37,034 nt of DNA from a bacterium (lineage in GTDB: Archaea > Nanobdellota > Nanobdellia > SCGC-AAA011-G17 > GW2011-AR17). A program made the position numbers and the translations under genes. Of the stretch, positions 1,573-28,846 are shown piece after piece. Location of the stretch: contig JAUYPF010000028.1 of NCBI GenBank assembly GCA_030697685.1, positions 1-37,034 of the forward strand. Reading direction: 5' to 3'. Each line of letters starts with the position of its first letter. Positions within the stretch are counted from its first letter, which is position 1. The notes under the pieces are model-generated. The model saw only the letters and a list, made by a program, of their open reading frames with translations, made no database searches and was not told where the DNA came from.

Positions 1573-2385
1573 TTATATATTCTCTTCTTTCTTTATTTTC
1601 TTTTGTAGTTTTTTAATATCTTTTTCGGCAGATAATTCTTCCGGTTTAATTCCACTGTCTATAAGGAGTCCTCTTACTTTTGAGTTATTCTTTGTATGCT
1701 CAGAAGTGATTTTGCTTTCACCTGAAAGATTCTCTTGTTTTACATTAAAATTAGTAATTTCTGTTGCGAGATTCTTTGCAGTAATGGTTATTGTTGGAAG
1801 AAAATCAGCAAGAGGTCTTTCTTTTGGGATTTTAAGCTTATTTTTCATTTCGAGTGTTGTGAAACCGCCAAATAAGGCTTCATCTCCCTTACTTCTAATT
1901 CTCGCAAAACCTGCATCATCCACGCCTCTTTCATAAATCAGTTTTGAAAGTTCTGTTTCTGAGTCAATAAGTTTTTTTCTTGCTTGGAGTCTTTCTGAGA
2001 GTGCTATTCTTTCTTCTATGATTTCTTGTTTTCTGGTCTGGACTGCAAAATAGCTTTGTGCGAATGCAATTTGTTCTTTTCTTGGATCTCCATTTTGTGC
2101 GATAAGGTAGCAGGCATATCTGGTGAGCATAATATCTTCAACTTTCCTTTCTGCTTCTGAGCCTAACTTGACCTTTTTGTTGGCGCCGACAAAATGGTCT
2201 TCAATTCTATGGCCAGAATTTTTGCATGAAACCTTTGCTTTTTCAATAACTTGACAAAAGTTTCTCCATTCATCATAATCTAATAGCCTTTGTAAATCTC
2301 TTGCAAACCAAAATTCTATGCCTTCTTTTTCATTTGCATAGTCTTCAAATGTTTTTTTCAGTTTTGTTATGATCTCTTTTTTCAT
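1573..2385 (-). CDS. DinD-like DNA-damage-inducible protein
   Basis: The 270-residue protein resembles bacterial DinD. The N-terminal half has a BRO-N-like fold signature (FWFARDLQRLLDYDEWRNF, then MLTRYACYLIAQNGDP), followed by a helical segment with QTRKQEIIEE and a FGGFTT motif. In E. coli, DinD belongs to the SOS regulon and is reported to restrain RecA activity; whether the archaeal protein does so is unknown. The promoter carries two copies of the palindrome described at 2433-2476, and a TATA-like TTTTTATTAAA lies about 27 bp before the start, so the message is probably leaderless. The C-terminal 60 residues are lysine/glutamate rich and probably flexible. It sits in an accessory patch with a BRO antirepressor gene, consistent with a viral or mobile origin. 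Confidence 0.85.
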   Translation of the reverse strand: MKKEIITKLKKTFEDYANEKEGIEFWFARDLQRLLDYDEWRNFCQVIEKAKVSCKNSGHRIEDHFVGANKKVKLGSEAERKVEDIMLTRYACYLIAQNGDPRKEQIAFAQSYFAVQTRKQEIIEERIALSERLQARKKLIDSETELSKLIYERGVDDAGFARIRSKGDEALFGGFTTLEMKNKLKIPKERPLADFLPTITITAKNLATEITNFNVKQENLSGESKITSEHTKNNSKVRGLLIDSGIKPEELSAEKDIKKLQKKIKKEENI

Positions 2386-2404: not shown

Positions 2405-2477
2405 TTTAATAAAAAGCTTTGTACATTTTTTTCGGAAGATTTCCGTGATTTTAAAAGAGATTCCGAAGGATTTCCGA
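2405..2477 (-). promoter_or_regulatory. dinD-like promoter with tandem CGGAA-N3-TTCCG operators
   Basis: Read on the minus strand, CGGAAATCTTCCG occupies 2445-2433 with its centre 54 bp upstream of the dinD-like ATG. A TATA-like TTTTTATTAAA follows at about 2418-2407. A weaker distal copy, CGGAAATCCTTCGG, lies at 2476-2463, about 30 bp further out and thus about three helical turns away. The same motif, orientation and spacing recur upstream of the genes starting at 7250, 11223 and 27650. Placement just upstream of the TATA region suits an activator or a BRE-overlapping regulator; which one is unknown. Confidence 0.72.
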
Positions 2478-4056: not shown

Positions 4057-6840
4057 ATGCAAATTCGCTCTGGTCTTACATATAATGATGTGCTTCTTGT
4101 TCCAAAGAGAACGCCTTTAAACTCTCGAAGTGAAGCTGATTTACATACACAGTTTACGAAGAATATTTCTCTTAACATTCCTCTTGTTAGCTCAAATATG
4201 GCTTCTGTAACAGAACATAAGATGGCAATAGCTATGGCACGAAATGGGGGTCTTGGAGTTATACACCAATTTGGAACGATTGAAGAACAAGTAGAAGAAG
4301 TGAAAAAAGTGAAAAAGAGTACGAGTTATGTGATTGAGCATCCTCTTACTGTGCAAGACCATATTACTCTTGGGCAAGCAATTGACATCATGAAAAGTGA
4401 AAGTGTGACGAGTCTTCTGGTGTTGCGAGGCGATGAACTTGTAGGTATATTTACTTCTCGAGATTATCTTTTTGAAAGTAATTGGGGAAAAAGAATTTCT
4501 GATGTGATGACTCCACGAGAGAAACTTATTACTGCTTCTTATGGGATAAGTCTTGATGAGGCAAAAGAACTTCTGCATAGACATAGGATTGAGAAGTTGC
4601 CCTTGTTACAGCATGGTCGATTATTAGGCCTTATTACTACAAAGGATATTATGAAAATTGAAACGTGGCCGCAAGCAAATCGAGATAGTAAAGGAAGATT
4701 ACGTGTGGGTGCTGCTGTGGGAGTGAAGGATACGCTTGTACGTGCGGAAGCTTTGATTGCTGCTGGTGTTGATGTTTTGATTTTAGATATTGCGCATGCA
4801 CATTCTGATCTTGTCATTCAAAGAGTGAAGGAGTTGAAACAAAATTTTTCTATTGATGTGATGGTGGGAAATATTGCTACTGCTGATGCTGCAAAAGATC
4901 TTATTGAAGCTGGAGCTGATGGGTTGAAGGTGGGAATTGGGCCCAGTGGTGTATGTCTTGAAGGAGATACTCCTATTTTAATGAGTGATTATACTGTTAA
5001 AAAAATTAAAGATATTGAAGTTGGAGATCAAGTTATAACACATATGGGGAGGATAAGAAAAGTTATTACAAGCTATAAAAGACTTTATTCTGGGAAATTT
5101 ATCTCTCTTAAAGTGAGAGGGTGTCCAGGAAGGCTAGTAATGACTCAGGAGCACCTTGTACTTGCAACACTTTTTCAAGCTGATCCTAAGAAAATTGCAA
5201 AATATGGTCCCAAATATTATTTTTCTAAAACAAAACATAATCAAGGATTAATATGGGCTAAAGCAAACCAGGTCAAGAAATTTGATGTTATGGTTTTATC
5301 TAAAGTTGCCTGTGAAAAAGAGATACGAACTTTATTTGATTTGGCAGAGTTATTTCCTGAATATGCTTTCGATTCTCAAAAAATATGGTCTCAGAAAATT
5401 GGATTTAATCCTAATGATGAATCTTATACTAACCTTGCAGAACGTTTTGAAACGACACCAAGAATTATAGGAAATATCGTACATGGTGGAAAATCAATGA
5501 ATATGATTTTAAACTATGAAGTAAATTCTTATTTAGAAACTACTGATTATCAGAGAGAAATGGTACCTGTTAAGATTAATAGGCTTATAGAATTAAATGA
5601 GGATTTAGCTCTTCTTATGGGCTATTATTTAGCAGAAGGTTCTATTGGTGGGTATCAAAATAATTGGCATGTAGGTTTTGATTTCCATATACATGAGACT
5701 TTTTATCATGATGATGTAAAGAAATTAGTAGAAAAAATATTTGGTTACTCAGGTACAGGGTTTATTTATGATAAAGAAAATAATAGTGCAAACGTCTCTG
5801 TTTATAATAACCTCATTGCAAAATTTATTAAAAAGCTTGTACCAGGAACTGCCCTTACAAAGATAATTCCAGAATGTGTTATATATGCAGATGAAAAAGT
5901 CTTGAAGAATATTCTGATTGGAATGATACGAGGTGATGGTACAATCAAAGACTATAGAAGGGTTAAGTATAAATCCTCTTCTATATCCCTTGCATTTCAA
6001 GTTTCATACCTTCTTGAGAGGTTGGGGTATTTCTCAACTATTACAAAAGCAAAACCCTCTAAAAAAAGTATAAATCCTAGTTATATAGTAAATATCTCTG
6101 GGAAACAGTATGAAAAGTTTTCTTTAGATTTCCATGAATTAAATATTAATGTTAGACCTGTGGCTATATCTAAACAACAAATCTGGGATGATGAACATTA
6201 TACCTATCTTGCTGTGGAGGATGTACAAGAATTGGATACAGAAATGGATGTTTATAATATTGAAGTTGAGGATGATAATTCCTATATTGCTAATAGGGTG
6301 GTAACTCACAATTGCACCACAAGAATTATTTCTGGGTCTGGTGTTCCTCAATTAACAGCAGTGATGGATGTGTGTTCTGCTGCAAAATTGTATGGTGTGC
6401 CTGTATGTGCTGATGGTGGAATGAAATATCCTGGTGATGTGTCAAAGGCTCTTGCTGCTGGCGCTTCAAGTATTTTTTCTGGAAGTTTCTTTTCTGGAAC
6501 GGATGAAGCACCGGGAATGATTATTATGAAAGATGGGAAGAGATACAAAAGGTATATGGGAAGTGCTTCTTATGATAGTAATCATGAACGAAAGGAAAGT
6601 CAAGAAGGGAAAAAAGTGAAAGAGAAATTAGATGTCTTTGTGGAAGGTGTTGCAACACTTGTTGATTATAAAGGACCAGTTGAAGAAGTGATTAAAGCAA
6701 TTATTAAGGGTGTGCAGAGTGGCTTTAGCTATTGTGGTGCACGAACGATTGCGGAGATGCAAGAGAAAGCAGAATTTATTCAAATCACTGCAAGTGCTTG
6801 GGAAGAAAGTCTTTCGCGTGGGACGAAGTTGAGTGATTAG
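4057..6840 (+). CDS. guaB: IMP dehydrogenase/GMP reductase family enzyme, intein-containing precursor
   Basis: The 927-residue precursor comprises 474 host residues and a 453-residue intein. The host enzyme interconverts IMP with XMP (dehydrogenase) or GMP (reductase) in guanine nucleotide metabolism. Residues 1-90 start the barrel, two CBS domains follow at about 95-205, the barrel resumes with RLRVGAAVG, and the catalytic loop reads GIGPSGV, intein, CTTRIISGSG. The +1 residue after the intein, precursor Cys753, is the catalytic cysteine. The C-terminal part has ADGGMKYPGDVSKAL and the flap-region sequence EGVATLVDYKG. In IMP dehydrogenases the position before VxYKG is often a catalytic arginine; here it is leucine, so a GMP reductase or altered activity should be considered. 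A TATA-like CTTTTTAAA lies about 26 bp before the ATG, implying a leaderless message. Confidence 0.9.
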   Translation: MQIRSGLTYNDVLLVPKRTPLNSRSEADLHTQFTKNISLNIPLVSSNMASVTEHKMAIAMARNGGLGVIHQFGTIEEQVEEVKKVKKSTSYVIEHPLTVQDHITLGQAIDIMKSESVTSLLVLRGDELVGIFTSRDYLFESNWGKRISDVMTPREKLITASYGISLDEAKELLHRHRIEKLPLLQHGRLLGLITTKDIMKIETWPQANRDSKGRLRVGAAVGVKDTLVRAEALIAAGVDVLILDIAHAHSDLVIQRVKELKQNFSIDVMVGNIATADAAKDLIEAGADGLKVGIGPSGVCLEGDTPILMSDYTVKKIKDIEVGDQVITHMGRIRKVITSYKRLYSGKFISLKVRGCPGRLVMTQEHLVLATLFQADPKKIAKYGPKYYFSKTKHNQGLIWAKANQVKKFDVMVLSKVACEKEIRTLFDLAELFPEYAFDSQKIWSQKIGFNPNDESYTNLAERFETTPRIIGNIVHGGKSMNMILNYEVNSYLETTDYQREMVPVKINRLIELNEDLALLMGYYLAEGSIGGYQNNWHVGFDFHIHETFYHDDVKKLVEKIFGYSGTGFIYDKENNSANVSVYNNLIAKFIKKLVPGTALTKIIPECVIYADEKVLKNILIGMIRGDGTIKDYRRVKYKSSSISLAFQVSYLLERLGYFSTITKAKPSKKSINPSYIVNISGKQYEKFSLDFHELNINVRPVAISKQQIWDDEHYTYLAVEDVQELDTEMDVYNIEVEDDNSYIANRVVTHNCTTRIISGSGVPQLTAVMDVCSAAKLYGVPVCADGGMKYPGDVSKALAAGASSIFSGSFFSGTDEAPGMIIMKDGKRYKRYMGSASYDSNHERKESQEGKKVKEKLDVFVEGVATLVDYKGPVEEVIKAIIKGVQSGFSYCGARTIAEMQEKAEFIQITASAWEESLSRGTKLSD
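4954..6312 (+). mobile_element. Intein with LAGLIDADG homing endonuclease in the guaB-like gene
   Basis: The intein spans precursor residues 300-752. Block A begins with Cys300 (CLEGDTPILM). Block B has the TxxH motif as TQEH at about 5144-5155. The central part has two LAGLIDADG-type helices, LLMGYYLAEGS (about 5611-5643) and ILIGMIRGDGT (about 5911-5943). The C-terminal block reads VYNIEVEDDNSYIA and ends VVTHN, followed by the +1 Cys. All residues needed for standard splicing are present, and the endonuclease motifs keep their acidic residues (AEG, GDG), so it may be active in both functions. No splicing-related damage is seen. Confidence 0.95.
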
Positions 6841-6885: not shown

Positions 6886-7044
6886 CTATATAAAAATATT
6901 TTTTATTGTTTGGATGGCTTTTCCTAATTGAGCATCAAAGAATGTAGAGCCTTCTCTTGTAAGAGCTATCATTATAAACATGAATAAAATGAATGCTATT
7001 ACTAATTGATAGTTTTCTTTTAGCCATGTTCCTGTTTTTTTCAT
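6886..7044 (-). CDS. Small single-pass membrane protein (52 aa)
   Basis: Not recognised. The chosen start is the ATG at 7044, which overlaps the stop of the upstream gene as ATGA; a longer reading from 7098 would run into that gene and is unlikely. The 52-residue product has a short basic N-terminus (MKKTGTWLKENYQ), one hydrophobic helix at about 14-30 (LVIAFILFMFIMIAL) and a polar tail. The overlap implies translational coupling with the two-helix protein starting at 7250. Together they form an operon controlled by the palindromic operator at 7298-7310. Function unknown; a membrane stress, holin-like or pore role would be speculation. Confidence 0.68.
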   Translation of the reverse strand: MKKTGTWLKENYQLVIAFILFMFIMIALTREGSTFFDAQLGKAIQTIKNIFI

Positions 7045-7250
7045 TGTATTTCCTCTTTTAGGATTTTTTCTTTTGCCCAATCTAAAATTATTAGCCACAC
7101 AAAGAGATACGCTAGTTCTGTTGCTATTATTAAGGCTATTGACTTTATAAGTATGCCTGAGATATAGTACGCCAATGCCGCAGCACCTACTATAAATGTT
7201 GTATAGGTTCTTGTGAGATCAGAAAGGAATTCTATATTTGTTTTTGTCAT
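7041..7250 (-). CDS. Small two-pass membrane protein (69 aa)
   Basis: Not recognised. The 69-residue protein has two hydrophobic helices at about 18-36 (TFIVGAAALAYYISGILI) and 38-57 (IALIIATELAYLFVWLIILD), then a charged tail (WAKEKILKEEIQ). Its stop overlaps the start of the 52-residue gene by ATGA. The promoter has a TATA-like TTTATTAAA about 27 bp before the ATG, preceded by the palindrome CGGAAATCTTCCG centred 54 bp from the ATG, identical in layout to the dinD-like and 27650 promoters. The product is therefore likely part of the same regulon. Confidence 0.72.
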   Translation of the reverse strand: MTKTNIEFLSDLTRTYTTFIVGAAALAYYISGILIKSIALIIATELAYLFVWLIILDWAKEKILKEEIQ

Positions 7251-7269: not shown

Positions 7270-7331
7270 TTTTTAATAAAGCTTTAGCATAAAAATCCGG
7301 AAGATTTCCGAAAAAAGCGGAAGATTTTTGG
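7270..7331 (-). promoter_or_regulatory. Operator and TATA box of the small membrane protein operon
   Basis: On the minus strand a perfect CGGAAATCTTCCG covers 7310-7298, centred 54 bp from the ATG at 7250. It is followed by GATTTTTATGCTAAAGC and TTTATTAAA. A half-conserved copy (CAAAAATCTTCCG, 7330-7318) lies 20 bp further upstream, two helical turns away. The stretch between operator and TATA closely matches the one at 27603-27619 (GTTTTTATGCAGAAATG), so the conservation extends beyond the palindrome. Confidence 0.72.
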
Positions 7332-10954: not shown

Positions 10955-11223
10955 TTATTCTTTTTCTTTTTGTTGTTCATAATATCCTAGAATTTCTTCA
11001 GCCTTTTCAGGGTTTAGAGAATAATGTATTTCTTGTGTTTTGATGAGAGCAATAAGCCAGCCATCTAATACAAGTTCTTTTACTGCTTGTTTTGTGTTTT
11101 TACTTCCTCGTATGGATCTAGGAAGACCGCCAAAAATATTCTCTGTATGGCTGCACCCCATTTATTCCATCGAACGAGTTTACTTATTATTAGTTCTTTT
11201 ATAATCTCTTTTGTATATCCCAT
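10955..11223 (-). pseudogene. Winged-helix protein gene broken by a one-base deletion
   Basis: From the ATG at 11223 the frame reads MGYTKEIIKELI, SKLVRWNKWG, then loses the frame. The downstream part, read from 11157, continues as CSHTENIFGGLPRSIRGSKN, then KQAVKELVLDGWLIALIKTQ and ends in HYSLNPEKAEEILGYY. Joining the two at the TGGGG run near 11155-11160 needs one extra G and gives an approximately 90-residue winged-helix protein with a natural WNKWG-C-SHTENI junction. The downstream ORF alone, starting MGCSHTENIFGG, would lack the first helices. The promoter carries the palindrome at 11270-11282, centred 53 bp from the ATG at 11223, which supports that start. Either a real decay event or a sequencing error in the G run is possible. 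Confidence 0.72.
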
Positions 11224-11269: not shown

Positions 11270-11282
11270 CGGAAAGTTTCCG
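11270..11282 (-). promoter_or_regulatory. CGGAA-N3-TTCCG operator between divergent winged-helix genes
   Basis: On the minus strand the palindrome reads CGGAAACTTTCCG and is centred 53 bp upstream of the ATG at 11223. A degenerate TATA (CTTTATGAAG) follows at the usual place. It lies in the 137-bp gap between the frameshifted winged-helix gene and the intact winged-helix gene starting at 11361, so it could serve both directions. Confidence 0.6.
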
Positions 11283-27580: not shown

Positions 27581-27589
27581 TTCTAATTC

Positions 27590-27630
27590 CGGAAATCTTC
27601 CGGTTTTTATGCAGAAATGTTTATTAAAAG
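27590..27630 (+). promoter_or_regulatory. Operator and TATA box of the 29-aa peptide operon
   Basis: CGGAAATCTTCCG at 27590-27602 is a perfect palindrome, part of a 15-base CCGGAAATCTTCCGG, centred 54 bp before the ATG at 27650. It is followed by GTTTTTATGCAGAAATG and the TATA-like TTTATTAAA at 27620-27628. This 39-base arrangement is nearly the same as at 7310-7272 in reverse orientation, which controls another small membrane-protein operon. Confidence 0.72.
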
Positions 27631-27649
27631 AAATAGACTAAAAGAAAAT

Positions 27650-27739
27650 ATGGAAAAAATAACTCCTCTCCTGATAGTATCAATACTTTGTGTTATAGTT
27701 CTAATTATGCTTTTGATCAAGGTGGTATATTTCCAATGA
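27650..27739 (+). CDS. 29-residue hydrophobic membrane peptide
   Basis: A short frame, MEKITPLLIVSILCVIVLIM then LLIKVVYFQ, composed almost entirely of one membrane helix. Its stop overlaps the ATG of the next gene (ATGA), so it is translationally coupled. It starts at the position expected for a leaderless transcript from the operator promoter at 27590. Size and hydrophobicity recall bacterial SOS-induced membrane peptides such as TisB, but there is no sequence evidence for homology. The alternative reading, starting the next gene at 27688, would ignore the ATGA overlap and the promoter. Confidence 0.6.
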   Translation: MEKITPLLIVSILCVIVLIMLLIKVVYFQ

Positions 27740-28077
27740 AATTAGACTGGGAGTCTATTGGATATTGGATACTTGCACTCTTTGGAATGTTCACAATTTA
27801 CCAGGCATTACGATATATCTTTGGTGGTTCTTGGGCAGTTGAAGGTTTAGTACTCGCTTTTTTAGTTGTGAATTTAACATTAACCATTTCAAATGGTATG
27901 AGACTTTCACATTTTGAATGGGAATTCAAAGAGTTTAAGCATGCCATGCTTGCTTTAGCAAAAGATTTTAAAGAGTTTAGAGAAGAGATGCGTGAGTTTA
28001 AACATGAAATGCACTATTTTAAGGCTCATACTGAAAAAAAATTAGAAATAATAGATAAGAATCTCAAAATGAATTAG
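27736..28077 (+). CDS. Two-pass membrane protein with C-terminal coiled coil
   Basis: Not recognised. The ATG at 27736 (MKLDWESIGYWIL) is chosen for the ATGA overlap with the peptide gene. The 113-residue protein has two membrane helices at about 8-27 (IGYWILALFGMFTIYQALRY) and 32-50 (WAVEGLVLAFLVVNLTLTI), then a long charged helix with heptad-like FKEFKHAMLALAKDFKEFRE and EMREFKHEMHYFKAHTEKK, probably a coiled coil facing the cytoplasm. It may oligomerise. Its regulation with the 29-residue peptide under the shared operator makes it part of the same stress-type regulon. Confidence 0.72.
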   Translation: MKLDWESIGYWILALFGMFTIYQALRYIFGGSWAVEGLVLAFLVVNLTLTISNGMRLSHFEWEFKEFKHAMLALAKDFKEFREEMREFKHEMHYFKAHTEKKLEIIDKNLKMN

Positions 28078-28251: not shown

Positions 28252-28479
28252 ATGGAAAAATGGGAAAAAAGAATTTGTACAGATCCAGAAATCATGGTAG
28301 GCAAGCCTGTAATCAAGGGCACTCGTATAACTATTGATTTTATTATAGAATTGCTTGCTCATGGTTGGACTCAAGAACAAATACTTGAAAATTACCCTCG
28401 TTTGAAGAAAGAAGATATCACAGCGGCATTAGAATATTCCGCTCAAGCTTTAAAATTAGAGACAATGTATTCCTTCTAA
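28252..28479 (+). CDS. DUF433-family antitoxin
   Basis: The 75-residue protein is a typical DUF433 antitoxin: RICTDPEIMVGKPVIKGTRI, then TIDFIIELLAHGWTQEQILE and NYPRLKKEDITAALEY, which form a winged-helix-like DNA-binding fold. It ends one base before the PIN-like DUF5615 gene, the usual arrangement of this toxin-antitoxin type. A TATA-like CTTAAATA at about 28222-28229 lies about 27 bp before the ATG, so leaderless. It is expected to bind and silence its partner and to repress its own promoter, as inferred from the family. Confidence 0.92.
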   Translation: MEKWEKRICTDPEIMVGKPVIKGTRITIDFIIELLAHGWTQEQILENYPRLKKEDITAALEYSAQALKLETMYSF

Positions 28480-28480
28480 C

Positions 28481-28846
28481 ATGAAAAAAGAAATAAAATT
28501 TCTTGCAGATGAAAACATTCCCTTAAAAGTAATCTCAAATTTACTTAGAGATAGGATAGATATAATTGCTGTAGCAGAAAAAAGTGCAAGAATTAAAGAT
28601 GAAGAGATACTAGAGCTTGCAAAAAAAGAAGGAAGGGTAATAATAACTTTTGATAAAGATTTTGGTGAGCTTGTATTTAGAAAAAAAAGAGAGACAAATG
28701 GAGTTATATTATTACAGTTACACCCTCAAACACAAGAAAAAACTGAAATGATTCTAAAAAAAGTGTGTAGCCTTAATATTGACTTCTCTTCTTCATTTTG
28801 TATTGTAAAAGAATCTAGGATAAAGGTAATTTCTCTACGTCATTGA
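28481..28846 (+). CDS. DUF5615 PIN-like toxin
   Basis: The 121-residue protein shows the DUF5615 pattern: FLADENIPLKVISNLLRD with the first acidic residue pair, then IDIIAVAEKSARIKDEEILE, the core FDKDFGELVFRK with the central Asp and Glu, and GVILLQLHP. These residues correspond to the acidic centre of PIN-like ribonucleases. With the DUF433 gene one base upstream, it forms a complete toxin-antitoxin module. No residue loss is seen, so it may be active. The pair is bracketed by two zinc-ribbon gene copies, which could allow its loss by recombination. Confidence 0.9.
   Translation: MKKEIKFLADENIPLKVISNLLRDRIDIIAVAEKSARIKDEEILELAKKEGRVIITFDKDFGELVFRKKRETNGVILLQLHPQTQEKTEMILKKVCSLNIDFSSSFCIVKESRIKVISLRH

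Follow-up and report, generated by a model that had tools for sequence, protein, structure and literature searches.

The operon at 27589-28077 of the window (the whole stretch of 37,034 nt analysed here) consists of a compact operator-promoter and two genes for small membrane proteins:

27589..27603, + strand: palindromic operator CCGGAAATCTTCCGG, with its core CGGAAATCTTCCG at 27590-27602
27604..27608, + strand: T5 tract leading from the operator to the core promoter, with T at 71-94% at each of the consensus positions 16-20
27616..27628, + strand: presumed BRE-like AA (27616-27617) and TATA box TTTATTAAA (27620-27628), corresponding to consensus positions 27-28 and 31-38
27650..27739, + strand: 29-aa single-TM peptide MEKITPLLIVSILCVIVLIMLLIKVVYFQ (Ka/Ks 0.36, an imprecise value resting on few sites; codon-position changes 5/0/4)
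27736..28077, + strand: 113-aa protein with two TM helices and a helical/coiled-coil tail, ATGA-coupled to the peptide (Ka/Ks 0.12; changes 8/2/23)

The palindrome is directly followed by TTTTTATGC (27604-27612), and the ATG of the 29-aa frame is found at 27650, 47 nt past the palindrome. According to its TATA-to-ATG spacing, the operon is probably leaderless. An alternative in-frame ATG further upstream would give a 40-aa product. Since this codon sits inside the promoter and is missing in the congener, we prefer the 29-aa start. The gene upstream of the operon ends about 9 nt before the palindrome. Directly past the operon, at 28252-28846, lies a gene pair that we take to resemble a DUF433-type antitoxin with a DUF5615 PIN-like toxin; this pair has no palindrome.

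Further operator copies and the genes behind them are located on the opposite strand of the window:

7298..7310, - strand: operator of a sister membrane-protein operon, with the same palindrome
6886..7250, - strand: sister operon, a 69-aa 2-TM protein (7041-7250) joined by an ATGA overlap to a 52-aa 1-TM protein (6886-7044)
2433..2445, - strand: operator copy 47 nt upstream of a dinD homologue
1573..2385, - strand: the dinD homologue (Bro-N by Pfam), a candidate member of the same regulon
11270..11282, - strand: variant operator CGGAAACTTTCCG with TTTATGAAG and an ATG at +46 (about 11223)

A preliminary description of this DNA attributed one promoter design to the operons starting at 27650 and 7250, and both indeed contain the palindrome, TTTTTATGC, TTTATTAAA and the ATGA overlap. 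The leaderless start proposed there for both agrees with the TATA-to-ATG spacing, and it is this spacing, rather than a mapped start site, that speaks for it. The topology that the two operons were said to share holds insofar as both encode pairs of small membrane proteins (29 and 113 aa versus 69 and 52 aa). The order, however, is reversed, 1-TM then 2-TM in the first and 2-TM then 1-TM in the second. The 69/52 operon is kept in G003 and G002 with operator variants, its operator being spelled CGGAAATCTTCCG, CGGAAATCTTTCG and AGAAAATCTTTCA in three congeners. In G002 (locus L207) the 69-aa gene has an in-frame TAA at codon 6, with promoter and 52-aa partner looking intact, which could be either a recent loss or a MAG error. 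The nearby guaB gene (IMPDH, 4057-6840) seems to contain an intein (CLEGDTPIL...VVTHNC). Behind the variant site at 11270, the gene at 10955-11223 (- strand) is divided into two overlapping frames (MGYTKEI... and MGCSHTEN...), as if by a frameshift at a GGGG run; an assembly error, a pseudogene or recoding could each account for it.

The palindrome recurs in the genome beyond chance. The exact 13-mer CGGAAATCTTCCG has 21 copies in 1.07 Mb against none for the reversed control, and CGGAANNNTTCCG has 22 sites, of which 21 share the loop ATC, compared with 2 sites when the pattern is reversed. CGGAAATCTTCCG is also abundant in the congener G002 and in G036, from another family, and is absent from most relatives. 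Variants of the form CGNAANNNTTNCG+GWTTTT were found in 23 of 117 relatives (about 115 matches, compared with about ten in controls), and operator variants occur in 45 of the 279 genomes of a phylum sample. The spelling of the half-site is specific to the genome: TTCCG mostly in G000, TTTCG or TTGCG in G003, often TTGCG in G016/G017. Such spelling fits co-evolution with a resident factor. No exact match was found in viral contigs, and the matches in bacterial genome contigs are probably due to chance, as those inspected had no promoter elements. In G030 (loci L032-L035) the same palindrome has repeated surroundings of another kind (GTGAAATCGCAAAC...AAAGCTTAAATAA), and in one case a TnpB gene follows; this may be an alternative promoter layout or else a repeat element. 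Our literature search returned no paper on the motif and nothing relevant on an archaeal toxin-antitoxin (TA) or SOS-like regulon of this kind.

Of the 153 sites pooled, 87 are followed by an open frame whose start lies 43-55 nt downstream; in 70 of these it falls at +46, +47 or +48. The logo of 65 sites with a start codon reads C1G2-AA-TT-C12G13-G-A/T-TTTTT...AA...TTTATTAA, with AA at positions 27-28 and TTTAT(T/A)AA at 31-38; we read these two elements as BRE and TATA of leaderless transcripts. The 29/113 operon has the full arrangement of palindrome, T5, TATA and start codon at about +47. The site is kept before the same genes in two genomes for the 29/113 pair, an OB-fold/nuclease pair and VapBC. 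At the other 66 sites there is no start codon at the expected place; a longer leader is seen at some of these, others run into tRNA-like genes and others are probably chance matches. At L018 (from 4553), L021 and L172, the motif and TATA are followed by sequences that resemble tRNAs (T-loop GGTTCAAATCCC) and seem to contain insertions; ARAGORN and Rfam recognised no known RNA in them. Those of L018 and L021 sit upstream of a conserved membrane protein with AHEVAH.

Behind the operator, genes for toxin-antitoxin, nuclease, transposon/integrase and small membrane proteins are strongly represented. Pfam assigned 104 downstream proteins to DUF2283 (9), PIN (6), DUF4258 (6) and MazE (4), to PemK, VapB, ParE, PBECR2, SNase, LTD and DUF3800 (2 each), and to YhcG, ORF6N, phage integrase and TnpB (one each). 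Several other operons behind it code for two small membrane proteins each. No TA family had two or more matches among 85 background ORFs, a rough control since some of these frames are spurious. The preliminary description had placed the 29-aa peptide in the regulatory company of a dinD homologue, and this is borne out: the window gene at 1573-2385, with the operator at +47, matches the NCBIfam model 'DNA damage-inducible protein D' with an E value of 2.9e-105, and many TA modules join it. Some members are neither TA nor defence genes. From these comparisons, the existence of the regulon as such is well supported. A shared operator-promoter before TA, nuclease and transposon genes suggests that these archaea have a stress or defence regulon not described before.

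Further information about the 29/113 pair was obtained from its relatives. One outcome that would speak against the small frames is a promoter kept without them. In the congener G002 we found the opposite, the same operon with its promoter after what is apparently the same upstream gene, and the frames under purifying selection. A search with the 113-aa protein gave matches in 21 of 117 genomes. At 23 of 24 loci examined in relatives from the order, a TM peptide of 27-38 aa abuts the 2TM gene (gap -5 to +4 nt), and under a stricter test applied identically to both sets, an upstream TM peptide was present for 22 of 24 family genes and for 2 of about 320 unrelated genes. The peptide has a single TM segment, fewer than 60 aa and a hydropathy maximum of 2.8-3.7 in 23 of the 24, with the consensus IxLxIWLI in the alignment. 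The aligned 2TM proteins have a GGS turn between the two TM segments and tails of two types, DFK-like and HxGWHKGK. A profile search of the phylum sample found family members in 41 of 279 genomes, with the peptide at 40 of 51 loci. Several copies occur in single genomes (G257, G151), and the archaeon DeMMO3_27 has two such pairs behind the operator. The window pair fits the family definition, a 2TM protein with a GGS or GHSPT turn and an abutting TM peptide on its 5' side. Judged by gene order and sequence, the 29/113 pair is conserved and belongs to a previously unnamed two-gene family of DPANN archaea, in which a single-TM peptide of 27-41 aa abuts a 2TM protein.

Neither protein has a clear home in Pfam, PHROGs or the PDB. 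DUF7554 matched five family members weakly (best 3e-4). AlphaFold predicts helices at residues 5-29 and 33-112 of the 113-aa protein, a TM hairpin with a long helix (pLDDT 71, pTM 0.30). No Pfam TA family was found in either protein, and the pair does not combine a DNA-binding antitoxin with an enzymatic toxin, both products being membrane proteins. A phage holin or spanin was considered and set aside, PHROG matches across the family being scattered and weak; the best, to an Rz-like spanin (4.6e-6), concerned two members other than the window protein and is probably due to the coiled coil. Rfam at its gathering threshold had no match in the whole window.

The operator is part of some of the family's promoters. 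In 55 distinct family promoters, an operator with at least 6 of the 8 fixed bases lies at 45-49 nt 17 times versus 1.8 expected, a roughly 9-fold excess. The operator also peaks at 67 and 78 nt, which fits tandem sites at distances of 20 and 31 bp; an earlier scan with a TATA filter had found few tandem sites. These spacings correspond to two and three helical turns and would therefore be expected of a protein on one face of the DNA. The palindrome is missing from 39 of the 55 promoters. As so many family members lack it, the module is not tied to the shared-operator regulon everywhere.

Taken together, we consider it fairly probable that the window contains a leaderless operon of a new membrane-protein family, placed under an operator-promoter with a dimeric factor and acting as a membrane effector of a stress or defence regulon. 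The peptide of 27-41 aa would be translated just ahead of the two-TM protein with its GGS or GHSPT turn and charged C-terminal tail. A lineage-specific operator-promoter would drive the operon, with the palindrome CGNAANNNTTNCG bound by the putative dimeric factor about 18 bp upstream of the TATA box, a near-fixed spacing from which the factor, more likely an activator than a repressor, could recruit or license transcription initiation. The same operator-promoter is found in front of modules of the VapBC, HicBA, MazF/PemK, ParE and DUF4258-DUF2283 types, and also before dinD, TnpB, an integrase, nucleases that are secreted or of defence type, and further pairs of small membrane proteins. On induction, the pair would enter the cell's own membrane and change its permeability or energy state, the second protein serving as partner or modulator of the peptide. 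A membrane-acting stress response, as suggested in the preliminary description, is plausible. More tentatively, and with some doubt of our own, we propose that a single archaeal transcription factor may govern this dispersed stress/defence regulon, with its TA modules, nucleases, mobile-element genes and various types of two-gene membrane-peptide operons, across a DPANN class through the fixed-spacing operator-promoter. In function it would be a counterpart of the SOS-controlled toxins of bacteria, with an evolutionary origin independent of LexA. Two candidates for the factor were discarded. The wHTH gene beside the site at 11270 occurs in multiple copies whether or not a genome has the motif, and an ImmA/IrrE-type M78 peptidase, weakly matched in G000 (7.3e-7) and more weakly in G002, does not clearly track the motif.

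The factor could instead be a repressor that keeps TA and membrane operons silent until stress or foreign elements release it. Bacterial TA and SOS operators are mostly repressor sites, and the tandem sites also suit cooperative repression. Here, however, the site is upstream of BRE/TATA, neither over it nor downstream, and an archaeal site in that position more often means activation. For this reason activation is favoured, and we think repression unlikely, though worth keeping in mind.

We also find it unlikely that the 29/113 pair merely uses a common promoter and forms a small membrane complex of an ordinary kind, for transport or envelope functions. That most family members have no operator agrees with it; a patchy distribution (41 of 279 genomes) with multiple copies in G257 and G151 is, in contrast, atypical of a housekeeping subunit, and the regulatory company is rich in TA modules.

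A true SOS-like regulon, in which damage releases or activates a factor that switches on dinD, radA, TA modules and membrane peptides, would make the 29-aa peptide similar to TisB or DinQ. DinQ of E. coli, a toxic peptide with a single TM segment, is under SOS control and depolarises the membrane (PMC3567139). Besides this precedent, the dinD homologue with its motif at +47, a motif 380-770 nt upstream of radA in G000, G001 and G002, and the nucleases, integrase and TnpB among the motif genes speak for such a regulon. Against it, of the dinD homologues present in 5 of 117 genomes, that of the window genome alone has the motif at +47; the motif is absent from radA in the other families examined, and other reading frames lie between motif and radA in G000 and G002. 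Furthermore, no S24/LexA-type peptidase (PF00717, E≤0.001) was matched in G000-G006, which comprise the window genome (92% complete) and its relatives in the genus, and PF00717 matches outside this group were mostly weak and may be signal peptidases. Because of the missing peptidase, the dinD link in one genome and the genus-only radA link, the SOS reading is weak. The specific link to SOS and DNA damage implied by the preliminary description was not upheld, and we regard such a regulon as improbable. The radA frame of G000 and G002 also seems to contain an intein.

Even less can be said for the units being mobile cassettes that carry their own common promoter and form no dedicated regulon, which we judge quite improbable. 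TA modules, TnpB and integrase are abundant and the distribution is patchy, as expected of cassettes; yet operator spelling tracks the genome and not the gene, as the three congeneric versions before the 69/52 operon illustrate, and the site is kept before the same genes in two genomes. Finally, we reject as most improbable that palindrome and T-run are an intrinsic terminator of the upstream gene: in spite of the hairpin with T5 and the short distance to that gene, where the orientation of the gene upstream of a promoter-like site was resolved, it was divergent in 22 cases and co-directional in 9, and a terminator leaves the fixed start codon at +47, the conserved TATA and the fixed ATC loop unexplained.

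Compared with known systems, DinQ is by analogy the nearest functional relative of the 29-aa peptide. Like DinQ and TisB, it is a very small single-TM peptide, and in the window its palindromic operator is shared with a dinD homologue. Unlike them, it is translationally coupled to a second membrane protein with no RNA antitoxin evident, and its system has no LexA and an operator upstream of an archaeal BRE/TATA. For the promoter, the nearest analogue is EarA, an activator proposed to help recruit TFB to the weak BRE of the Methanococcus maripaludis fla promoter (PMC5512572); the operator just upstream of BRE/TATA resembles its site. The target genes differ, and the window palindrome stands at fixed spacing before dozens of unrelated operons. 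Type II TA modules (VapBC, HicBA, MazEF, DUF4258-DUF2283) have similar two-gene overlapping operons and the identical operator-promoter, but the 29/113 operon encodes two membrane proteins, and no DNA-binding domain is recognised in either. The NrpR operator of methanogens, GGAA-N6-TTCC, is also a palindrome with GGAA/TTCC half-sites; its spacer is 6 as against 3 in the window palindrome, and its gene set is unrelated.

We know of no description of an archaeal global regulator for toxin-antitoxin and membrane-toxin-like genes. If our reading is correct, it would add a sequence-defined regulon of dozens of sites and a new bicistronic membrane-peptide family, and the question of coordinated dormancy or abortive defence in archaea could be addressed directly. 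The operator consensus with the +47 rule could also serve as an annotation tool for small genes that gene callers miss.

Two other arrangements around the motif were observed. At L006 and L022, one palindrome apparently serves two divergent promoters, for an OB-fold membrane protein and a secreted staphylococcal-nuclease-like protein. In G000, G002, G036 and G091 (L152, L171, L184, L200), the motif also precedes a second recurrent operon, in which a 2TM protein of 56-58 aa comes before a membrane protein of 86-89 aa.
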